From Clostridia bacterium (GTDB lineage: Bacteria > Bacillota > Clostridia > Monoglobales > Monoglobaceae): DNA of 64,000 nucleotides. The translations under genes were made by a program, and so were the position numbers. Below the pieces are notes generated by a model, which was given only the letters and a program-made list of their open reading frames with translations, was not told the DNA's origin and did not search any database. This document shows, one piece after another, positions 60,568 through 63,775 of this stretch (positions within the stretch are counted from its first letter, which is position 1; each line of letters begins with the position of its first letter). The stretch spans positions 1-64,000 of the forward strand of contig JAFYXL010000016.1 in NCBI GenBank assembly GCA_017546165.1. Direction: 5' to 3'.

Positions 60568-61809
60568 TTAGATATCGTAGTCAAGTTTAAATTGTTCGCC
60601 ACAACCGTATTTTTCGTAAACATAGTCAATATCTTTGTCGCCTCTGCCTGAAAGACAAGCAAGGATAGAACCAGTCTTATGTTCTTTTGCATAGCGGATA
60701 GCATATGCAACTGCGTGGGCACTTTCAATAGCCGGGATAATACCCTCATATCTTGAAAGCAAGAAGAATGCTTCCATAGCTTCTTCATCAGATACTGCAT
60801 CATAATGCACTCTGCCAAGATCACGCAAAAGTGCGTGTTCAGGACCAACACCCGGATAGTCAAGACCGCTGGCAATTGAGTAAACAGGCAACGGCTCACC
60901 ATTTTCGTCTTGAAGTACATAGCTTTCAAATCCGTGGATTTTTCCTTTTGTACCAAATTTCATTGTTGCGGCGTGGTCACCCACATTGCATCCTCTGCCT
61001 AAAGGCTCAACACCATAAATCTCAACGGGGTCGGCAAGGAAGGGTGTAAACATACCTAATGAGTTTGAGCCACCTCCAACACAGGCACAAACGGCATCAG
61101 GCATAATGCCCGTCATTTCAAGGAACTGTTCTCTTGCTTCGATACCAATAACAGATTGGAAGTCTCTTACCATTTTGGGGAATGGGTGTGGACCTGCAGC
61201 AGTACCAATGCAGTAAATTGCGTTTTCGTATTCATTGAGGTATGCTTCAAAAGCAGCGTCGCAAGCTTCCTTCAAGGTTTTAAGTCCTTTTGTGACAGGA
61301 ATAACATTTGCACCAAGCATCTTCATACGAATAACGTTTGGATGTTGTTTTTCGATATCAACTTCACCCATATAAACGTCACATTCCATACCAAAGTAAG
61401 CTGCGGCGGTAGCAATGGCAACCCCGTGCTGACCGGCACCTGTTTCGGCAATAATCTTCTTTTTGCCCATATACTTTGCAAGAAGACCTTCTCCCATACA
61501 ATGATTAAGCTTGTGCGCACCGGTATGGTTTAAATCTTCTCGTTTTAAATAAATCTGACAGTTGCCAAAAATTTTAGAAAGTCTTTCACAATGATAAACA
61601 GGTGTAGGTCTGCCCTGGAATTCCTTTCTTATTCTGCGGAGCTCATTGATAAACTGAGCAGAATGACAAATGGCCTCGTAGGCATCGTCGGCCTCTTTAA
61701 ATGCTGCAATAAGTTTGTCAGGCATATATGCGCCGCCATATTCGCCAAAGTAACCCTCTGCGTTTGGGTATTCTTTTAAGTAGTTGTCAAAATCCTTATA
61801 TTTATTCAT
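60568..61809 (-). CDS. trpB: Tryptophan synthase beta chain (stand-alone)
   Basis: 413 residues. The PLP lysine is in [20 protein letters not shown] (about residue 95), with [17 protein letters not shown], the cofactor-phosphate loop [12 protein letters not shown], and the C-terminal [11 protein letters not shown]. It joins indole and serine to make tryptophan. ATG 61809 is set by AGGAG 9 nt upstream; the ATG at 61827 has none. No trpA or other trp gene adjoins, so it may salvage free indole or work with a distant TrpA. Expression is probably attenuated by the leader at 61859-62006. Confidence 0.95.
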
Positions 61810-61858
61810 ACTTATGTACTCCTTCATTCTAAAATATTAAAATATTTGGAATTTTCAA

Positions 61859-61892
61859 TAAAAAAATCCTCTGAACAACAAATCAGAAGATT
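61859..61892 (-). terminator. Attenuator (intrinsic terminator) in the trpB leader
   Basis: Read on the minus strand: AATCTTCTGA (61892-61883), 8-nt loop, TCAGAGGATT (61874-61865) with one G-U pair, then a run of T (61866-61859). It lies about 50 nt upstream of the trpB start and ~75 nt after the predicted transcription start, so its purpose is to stop the transcript before trpB. Confidence 0.8.
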
Positions 61893-61926
61893 AAAATAAC
61901 AAAGTATATAAATACCTTTTAATCTC
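61887..61926 (-). promoter_or_regulatory. Possible antiterminator of the trpB leader
   Basis: GAGATTAAAA (61926-61917) can pair with TTTTAATCTT (61896-61887), nine Watson-Crick pairs plus one G-U, with a 20-nt loop. The 3' arm overlaps the 5' arm of the terminator stem, so only one of the two can form. The 5' arm contains the last GAG triplet of the repeat array. Confidence 0.6.
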
Positions 61927-61971
61927 GTCTAATCTCATTATATTCAATCTCATCTAATCTGTTCTGTTCTT
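61924..61971 (-). promoter_or_regulatory. TRAP-like (NAG) repeat array in the trpB leader
   Basis: On the minus strand, triplets start at an exact 5-nt period from 61971 to 61924: AAG, CAG, CAG, TAG, GAG, two non-matching positions (TGA, ATA), GAG, TAG, GAG. Eight of ten positions are NAG and five are GAG or TAG. TRAP (MtrB) of Bacillus binds 11 G/UAG triplets separated by 2-3 nt in trp leaders (established knowledge). Five-nucleotide spacing equals a triplet plus a 2-nt spacer, the optimum. Confidence 0.6.
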
Positions 61972-61976
61972 TTATC

Positions 61977-62006
61977 AATATATCATAAATATAAGTTAGT
62001 TGTCAA
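61977..62006 (-). promoter_or_regulatory. trpB promoter
   Basis: On the minus strand TTGACA (62006-62001), 18-bp spacer, TATATT (61982-61977). Transcription would start near 61970, at the edge of the NAG array. Confidence 0.65.
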
Positions 62007-62025
62007 TACTTTTGCAAAAAAGAAT

Positions 62026-62047
62026 AAAGACGGCGATTGCCGTCTTT
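62026..62047 (-). terminator. Terminator of the acyl-CoA synthetase gene
   Basis: Perfect 9-bp stem AAAGACGGC / GCCGTCTTT, 4-nt loop, with TATTCTTTTTT on the minus strand. Confidence 0.85.
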
Positions 62048-62053
62048 AAAATT

Positions 62054-63775
62054 TTAGACCAAAGCGGGTTCTTCTTTTGTTTCAAGTGAGTTTTCAAGAT
62101 CGCGGTATGCAACTTTGCCCACCATAGTTTTGGGAAGTTCGTCCCTGAATTCAATAGCCCTGGGCATTGCATACTTGGCAATATGTTTTGAACAGTAGCT
62201 AAGTATCTGTTTTTTTGTTTCCTCGGTTTTTGGCACGCCGTCTTTAAGCATTATAAATGCCTTAACCTGCTGCATACGGTAATCATCTTTGACACCAACT
62301 ACACAGCTCATCTGAACCAAATCGCAGGCATCCAGAACATTTTCCACCTGATTTGGATACACATTATAGCCGGAAGTAACAATCATACGCTTTGCTCTGC
62401 CTTTGAAATAAACAAATCCTTCAGGGTCCATTGTTCCCAAGTCACCTGTATAAACCCATTTAAGACCGTCTGTGTGGGTACGGAGAGTCTGGGCGGTTTC
62501 AACAGGGTGATTCAGGTATTCAAGCATAGTAGATGGACCTGCAAGCAGAATCTCGCCGGTTTCACCATAAGGTAGTTCCTCGTCAGTTCCGGGCTTTACG
62601 ATTTTGATATAAGTATCAGGAAAAGGCAAGCCTATACTGCCCTCTTTTGCCATATGGGGAGGGGTAAGACAGCAAGCACAGACGGTTTCAGTAGTGCCAT
62701 ATCCCTCGCGGACCTGAATAACTGACTTGTGGTCATAGAGAAATTTGTCAAGCTTCTTTTTAAGTTCAACTGAGAGGGAGTCACCACCGGAAAAGACCCC
62801 TTTAAGGAATGAAAGGTCTGCTTTTTCCAGAGATGGCATACGAAGCAGCGCTTCGTACAAAGTAGGTACTCCCGCCATAAAGTTACATTTGTATTTAGTA
62901 ATCAATTTTGCATAGCTTGATGCAGTAAAGCGCGGAACCAGGATACATCTTCCGCCGCTTATTAACATTGCGTGGATACAAACACCAAGGCCAAATCCGT
63001 GAAAAATCGGCATTGCAGCCAGCATTTTGTCACCTGGTCTGAACATTGGATTTGAGGCAATAGTTTGTCTGCCCATAGCATTAAAGTTTCTATTGGTCAA
63101 AACAATACCCTTTGTTTTGCCTGTTGTACCGCCTGAATAGAGAATAACAGCAGGGTCGTCTGCTTTTCGCTCAACCTTATAGTTCCAAAAACAAGCTTTA
63201 CCAAGCTTTAAAAAATCATTCCAACGGATAACAGGGGCATCATCAGGGATTTTTTTGATTTTATAGCTTTCGGTAAACATATATCCTGCCCTTACAGGTT
63301 TTGAAAGCTCGTCCTTAATTGATGCAATAATTACATTAACCAATTTTGTGTTGTGGCGGATTGCCTCAAATTTGTGGTAAAACTGGTCAAGAGTAATTAC
63401 AGTTACACTGTCGGATTCGTTCAGGTAAAATTCAATTTCCTTTTCTGCAGAAAGTGGATGAATCATATTGCAGATACCACCTACCAAGTTTACTGCATAA
63501 AAAAGAAAAACAGATTGAGGACAGTTGGGCATAGCGATTGTGACACGATCCCCTTCGCGGATACCGATAGTTTTTAAACTTTTTGCGCAGGTTTCAATCT
63601 TTTCCATAAAGACTTTGTATGTAGTAGATTTACCCATAAAGTCAAATGCTATTGAATCAGGGTACTTATCTGCTGACTCTTTAAGTGCATCATACATTGA
63701 ACCGCTAGGATACTCAAGAGTCGCAGGTATGTCACCTATGTGATTAAGCCACGGCGCTTTTGCAGTAATATTCAA
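62054..63775 (-). CDS. AMP-dependent acyl-CoA synthetase (ANL superfamily)
   Basis: 573 residues. The ATP-binding loop is ILYSGGTTGKTKGIVLTNRN (about 210-229), followed by GYGTTETVCACC, the hinge YTGDLGTMDPEGFVYFKGRAKRM and the C-terminal Lys region LPKTMVGKVAYRDLE. It activates a carboxylic acid as acyl-AMP, then acyl-CoA; the size is that of medium/long-chain fatty-acid ligases, but the acid is not determined. TTG 63775 is the start, with AAGGAG ~9 nt upstream. It follows the E2-like gene by 14 nt on the minus strand and probably shares its transcript. Confidence 0.88.
   Translation of the reverse strand: MNITAKAPWLNHIGDIPATLEYPSGSMYDALKESADKYPDSIAFDFMGKSTTYKVFMEKIETCAKSLKTIGIREGDRVTIAMPNCPQSVFLFYAVNLVGGICNMIHPLSAEKEIEFYLNESDSVTVITLDQFYHKFEAIRHNTKLVNVIIASIKDELSKPVRAGYMFTESYKIKKIPDDAPVIRWNDFLKLGKACFWNYKVERKADDPAVILYSGGTTGKTKGIVLTNRNFNAMGRQTIASNPMFRPGDKMLAAMPIFHGFGLGVCIHAMLISGGRCILVPRFTASSYAKLITKYKCNFMAGVPTLYEALLRMPSLEKADLSFLKGVFSGGDSLSVELKKKLDKFLYDHKSVIQVREGYGTTETVCACCLTPPHMAKEGSIGLPFPDTYIKIVKPGTDEELPYGETGEILLAGPSTMLEYLNHPVETAQTLRTHTDGLKWVYTGDLGTMDPEGFVYFKGRAKRMIVTSGYNVYPNQVENVLDACDLVQMSCVVGVKDDYRMQQVKAFIMLKDGVPKTEETKKQILSYCSKHIAKYAMPRAIEFRDELPKTMVGKVAYRDLENSLETKEEPALV

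Follow-up and report, generated by a model that had tools for sequence, protein, structure and literature searches.

A probable TRAP-type transcription attenuator in the leader of a lone trpB gene from an uncultured Monoglobaceae clostridium

Translation of trpP and trpG in Bacillus subtilis is controlled by TRAP, the product of mtrB. The B. subtilis trp attenuator, whose target is trpEDCFBA, contains 11 repeats in a 203-nt leader together with a 5' stem-loop and an antiterminator at +60 to +111 (PMC3913778, PMC4027176), and stable TRAP binding has been reported with 7 or more (G/U)AG repeats (PMC4027176). A leader of related layout was found on the minus strand of the DNA analysed here, the window, which comprises 64,000 nt (positions 1-64,000 of contig JAFYXL010000016.1, Clostridia bacterium, Monoglobaceae). 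In common with the B. subtilis trp attenuator are (G/U)AG repeats with 2-3 nt spacing, mtrB in trans, a (here predicted) antiterminator overlapping the binding site and a weak intrinsic terminator, also overlapping, ahead of the gene (PMC3913778, PMC4027176). Unlike in B. subtilis, the window leader has 8 NAG triplets (5 strong) with a gap, its array lies at the very 5' end, it measures about 117 nt to the U-tract, the first half of the array is the predicted antiterminator strand, and the target is a lone trpB.

We consider it very likely that the window leader is a TRAP-type transcription attenuator, a reading first put forward in a first-pass annotation and now supported by mtrB in the genome, a triplet period kept in relatives and a computed fold switch. 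The mechanism would be the known one of Bacillus TRAP attenuation, and the new features would be the lone salvage gene as target, the compact 5'-end layout, an antiterminator strand supplied by the first half of the array, and leader types that alternate among relatives at one orthologous gene. With trpP and trpG the system shares the protein and the triplets, and in two relatives an array covers the ribosome-binding site or the start codon, at trpB in L080 and at a TrpB2 gene in G062. The window array differs in lying well upstream of its ribosome-binding site, with a terminator downstream. T-box leaders, which precede orthologous trpB genes in sister species, likewise switch a terminator but sense uncharged tRNA(Trp) and not free tryptophan, and none occurs in the window. 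No description of TRAP arrays before a lone trpB was found in the literature covered, a partial coverage with most subscription papers outside it.

The gene following the leader (60568..61809, minus strand) encodes a tryptophan synthase beta subunit of 413 aa and matches the equivalog TIGR00263 with 533 bits (cut-off 392); when the genome was searched with this TrpB protein, the sole match was the protein itself. Its ATG at 61809, the same Met as used by the orthologues, is preceded by the Shine-Dalgarno sequence AAGGAG (61820..61825, minus strand). The leader begins with a sigma-A-type promoter (61977..62006, minus strand) made of TTGACA at 62006-62001, an 18-nt spacer and TATATT at 61982-61977, and comparable boxes are present in the trpB leaders of congeners. 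The TRAP-site-like array (61924..61971, minus strand) has NAG at eight of ten positions with an exact 5-nt period, namely AAG 61971, CAG 61966, CAG 61961, TAG 61956 and GAG 61951, then two non-NAG positions (TGA 61946, ATA 61941) that leave a mid-array gap, then GAG 61936, TAG 61931 and GAG 61926. Five triplets are thus strong (G/U)AG and three weak (AAG, CAG, CAG), and the array ends about 115 nt upstream of the start codon, far from the Shine-Dalgarno sequence. The intrinsic terminator (61860..61892, minus strand) consists of a perfect 10-bp stem including one G-U (61892-61883 with 61874-61865), an 8-nt loop and a tract of 7 T (61866-61860), the stem having a folding energy of -11.3 kcal/mol, and stands about 50 nt before the ATG. 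Direct reading therefore confirmed the promoter, the eight-of-ten array with five GAG or TAG between 61971 and 61924, and the terminator of the first-pass annotation, and its stand-alone trpB is borne out by a genome without trpA. Behind the upstream acyl-CoA-ligase-like gene (62054-63775) there is a terminator-like hairpin (62025..62047, minus strand), so the trpB leader looks like a separate transcription unit.

The window array exceeds chance expectation. The 8/10 register occurs at a single site in the whole window, and among 150 dinucleotide shuffles of the window none contained it, with 0.03 sites per shuffle at seven or more positions. Five consecutive NAG at period 5 were found once in the 1.34-Mb genome, in the window leader, and six were found nowhere in this genome, the run being interrupted by the mid-array gap. 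Since a reversed control pattern of the five-NAG run was found at two sites in the same genome, the run alone is not rare, and it is the full register that is unusual and carries weight.

The lack of a TRAP-like gene had been named in the first-pass annotation as one ground for abandoning its reading. A PF02081 search of the genome (1.34 Mb, 88% complete) detected a single mtrB (E = 6e-36), so this ground falls away. The 79-aa product aligns to solved TRAP structures and retains the EKLDKGE and KVRGK motifs, which we take to hold the known RNA-binding residues of TRAP. Among 100 relatives sampled through the class, 40 have TRAP. The mtrB of Bacillus adjoins folE; that of the present genome (L001 1489-1728) does not, and is flanked by genes read from sequence as dipicolinate-synthase-subunit-like and CDP-alcohol phosphatidyltransferase-like. 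In several clostridial TRAPs the Arg of KVRGK (Arg58 in B. subtilis numbering) is replaced by Asn or His (changed in L022, L142 and L143; His also in L018 and L019). Unlike in the Bacillus TRAP regulon, anti-TRAP (rtpA) was not found here; searches gave weak matches only, inside frames of about 380 aa read as DnaJ zinc fingers, and the match in the present genome was below the cut-off.

Orthologous trpB leaders of TRAP-bearing congeners keep both the 5-nt triplet period and the terminator, so the other ground named in the first-pass annotation, a stem kept without the period, falls away as well. In three congeners (G002, G005, G006) and another member of the family (G019), the leader consists of promoter, array and terminator, with NAG at 10/11, at least 9 of 11, 8/11 and 9 positions, respectively, and in L095, from another genome, seven consecutive NAG and a terminator lie ahead of trpB. 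Strong (G/U)AG triplets number 6 to 7 in the relatives' arrays. A gap of the form TGAAT-ATnnT is common to G005 and G006, where the triplets on either side stay in register, while the G002 array has a one-unit gap and the register slips in G019. A different layout is seen in L080, where AAG AA TAG AG GAG AA TAG covers the Shine-Dalgarno sequence directly 5' of the start codon, with a stem-loop upstream, between two triplet groups (L080:520-602), and no apparent terminator in the leader. This genome encodes TRAP, and its array is probably a translational version of TRAP control.

To compare arrays with TRAP presence, the leaders of the 80 best trpB orthologues were scored for arrays before TRAP was searched in the genomes; the L080 array was flagged by the scan and accepted as a site only after TRAP had been found in its genome. 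TRAP was present in 5 of the 80 genomes, and all five carry arrays, four of attenuator type (L066, L077, L095, L106) and one over the Shine-Dalgarno sequence (L080), and TRAP was found in every relative whose trpB leader carries an array. The remaining 75 leaders showed no comparable array (L063 and L124 being too short to judge); they contain T-boxes, Trp-containing mini-ORFs or nothing recognised. For the first 50 genomes, arrays were found in 5/5 TRAP-bearing genomes vs 0/45 (p = 4.7e-7, genomes taken as independent), or p = 2.2e-5 for the four attenuator arrays only, relatedness ignored. The trpB tree is poorly resolved, with 4 changes on the best tree and a single origin compatible; it contains only 1 to 4 independent contrasts, so a phylogenetically corrected co-occurrence test is without power. 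The congeners G001 and G004 have neither TRAP nor array. In G016, TRAP is present, a T-box-like leader precedes a more distant trpB homologue (72% identity), and an array precedes a TrpB2 gene. Since the genomes are metagenome-assembled and incomplete, single TRAP absences may be false.

An antiterminator/terminator switch was computed for the window leader. With the array free, the best fold (minimum free energy) is one long helix between the first half of the array (61937..61969, minus strand) and 61873..61900 (minus strand), the latter running through the terminator 5' arm and loop and two bases into the 3' arm; this helix, at -24.2 kcal/mol, takes in array positions 1-7 and excludes the terminator. 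The first-pass annotation had placed the antiterminator at 61926-61917 with 61896-61887, its 5' arm holding the last GAG. This 10-bp helix does exist but falls short of the best fold (-19.4 kcal/mol when forced, with -18.1 kcal/mol for the forced terminator), and the main antiterminator is predicted to be the first half of the array paired with the terminator 5' arm and loop. The computed probability of the terminator is 0.0001 for a free array vs 0.96 for a masked one, and pairing of the 5' arm with the array reaches 98% in a transcript that lacks the 3' arm. Four further leaders switch in the same way, so that terminator and array-terminator pairing are retained in five of the six attenuator-type leaders; G005 is weak, its terminator standing at 0.78 at equilibrium even unbound, with the 5' arm pairing to the array only before the 3' arm exists. 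Folding energy alone is a weak test of tuning, as 13-42% of shuffles that kept the NAG triplets gained equally. By the sharper measure of terminator probability, which was chosen after folding energy had been tried, 1.3% of NAG-kept shuffles reached a value as low as that of the window, and the corresponding shares were 1.3% for G002, 14.7% for G006, 18.7% for G005, 4.0% for G019 and 2.0% for L095. The modelled pairing suggests why the weak CAG triplets and the gap would persist, as these same bases would pair with the terminator.

In the proposed mechanism, transcription would start beside the array. As long as no TRAP charged with tryptophan is bound, the array's purine-rich first half would pair with the pyrimidine-rich terminator 5' arm and loop, allowing trpB to be transcribed. 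When tryptophan is present, a TRAP ring made from the mtrB located elsewhere in the genome would bind the NAG triplets and block this pairing, whereupon the 10-bp terminator would form and trpB would be turned off. We infer tryptophan-dependent binding and termination of this kind at the window leader.

TRAP bound to the leader could instead work chiefly through translation or RNA stability, in which case the terminator would be constitutive or play a secondary part. The L080 layout is of this kind, and transcriptional and translational modes thus both seem to occur at trpB, but the distance of the window array from the Shine-Dalgarno sequence and the pairing kept in five of six attenuator-type leaders make such action improbable here. 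Counting against TRAP control of the window leader are its five strong triplets, fewer than in G002, G005 and G019 and below the 7 or more reported for stable binding of B. subtilis TRAP, and its two missing mid-array positions; in addition, some genomes with trpB arrays encode a TRAP with Asn for the KVRGK Arg. These triplets and the gap would suit a decayed TRAP site, with weak or no control now, or a site used by another NAG-reading protein. This is also quite unlikely, since the genome has an intact TRAP and the gap looks maintained: it is found again in G005 and G006 between triplets that stay in register, and in the predicted antiterminator its bases pair with the terminator. We know of no other protein that reads NAG at a 5-nt period.

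The T-boxes and Trp-containing mini-ORFs at orthologous trpB genes of sister species raise the question of ribosome-mediated leader-peptide attenuation or a T-box in the window. Neither fits the sequence: there is no TGG codon from promoter to terminator and no Trp-containing short ORF ahead of the terminator, and Rfam gave no RF00230 match and nothing above threshold on the window, so that this explanation is largely refuted and its probability very slight. Equally slight is the probability of chance periodicity in a purine-rich sequence beside an ordinary terminator. Although a five-NAG run is not rare by itself, the absence of the full register from all shuffles speaks against chance, and the fact that arrays and TRAP coincide exactly from genome to genome refutes it. 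The TRAP attenuator remains the preferred reading of the window leader.

The physiological role of the gene was considered from its partner. In the absence of TrpA, the only route to tryptophan open to TrpB is from free indole and serine. No trpA was found in the present genome or in 8/8 congeners searched (genomes 68-89% complete), while the same search found trpA in 14/14 control genomes. With trpA missing in the genus, TrpB likely salvages indole, and salvage of indole from the gut is its most likely role; the switch would halt this salvage when tryptophan is plentiful. It is suggested that these gut bacteria regulate how much of the gut signal indole they turn into tryptophan, and TRAP control would reach beyond the biosynthetic operons of Bacillus and take in a salvage gene of uncultured gut clostridia. 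In a broader picture, which we hold to be evenly balanced between right and wrong, TRAP controls indole salvage in uncultured ruminant-gut clostridia through a compact attenuator, the 5'-end TRAP site being the antiterminator strand and its gap being shaped by pairing, and TRAP, T-box and leader-peptide control are interchanged among close relatives at this orthologous trpB, tracking gain or loss of mtrB.

A scan of the class for seven consecutive NAG at period 5, in which arrays made of GAG and TAG were considered, located such arrays mostly before tryptophan genes. They precede trpE (G086, G015), trpP-like ECF transporters (G074, G094, G070), a TrpX-like substrate-binding protein (G036) and TrpB2-like enzymes (G037, G016 and G062, the last over the start codon). 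The gene names are readings of the translations, and the G016 and G015 genes adjoin TrpB-family matches. The G037 genome (74% complete) yielded no TRAP gene. Seven-NAG matches in relatives from low-complexity repeats (AGTAAAG, AGCACAG) were set aside, as was the L161 match, a coding coincidence. In the TRAP-bearing genome G086, a GAG/TAG array also covers the start region of a phenylacetate-CoA-ligase-like gene (L186, G086:C1 ~2788150), a possible further TRAP target judging from this array.

At one orthologous trpB, at least three kinds of tryptophan-related leader (TRAP array, T-box, Trp mini-ORF) occur among close relatives, and since arrays track mtrB presence at this gene, regulator replacement is directly testable. 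An Rfam RF00230 T-box was found in leader L108. Directly 5' of trpB, and often downstream of a T-box, there is a mini-ORF of the form M(F/Y)(I/Y)(L/S)xxRW(R/Q/C)...stop, seen in the last 150 nt before trpB among orthologues L061-L138 (e.g. L121, L108, L084). The hexamer CGATGG is present in 39 of 79 leaders vs a shuffled mean of 1.3, and the mini-ORF Arg codon is CGA in 37/37, against a share of roughly 7% for CGA among the Arg codons of the same trpB genes. This mini-ORF has the appearance of a second layer of control, by Trp sensing or an arrest peptide, and no description of such a layer was found in the literature covered. Another leader ORF, MTFLKKYILNQ(W/S)GGN(I/T)WA*, lies about 80-140 nt before trpB in L064 (=L033), L082 (=L035) and L139, in leaders with no Rfam match. 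ORFs of this type occur in TRAP-less genomes only, and their stop codon is within the loop of GGGCGTAAGCCC.
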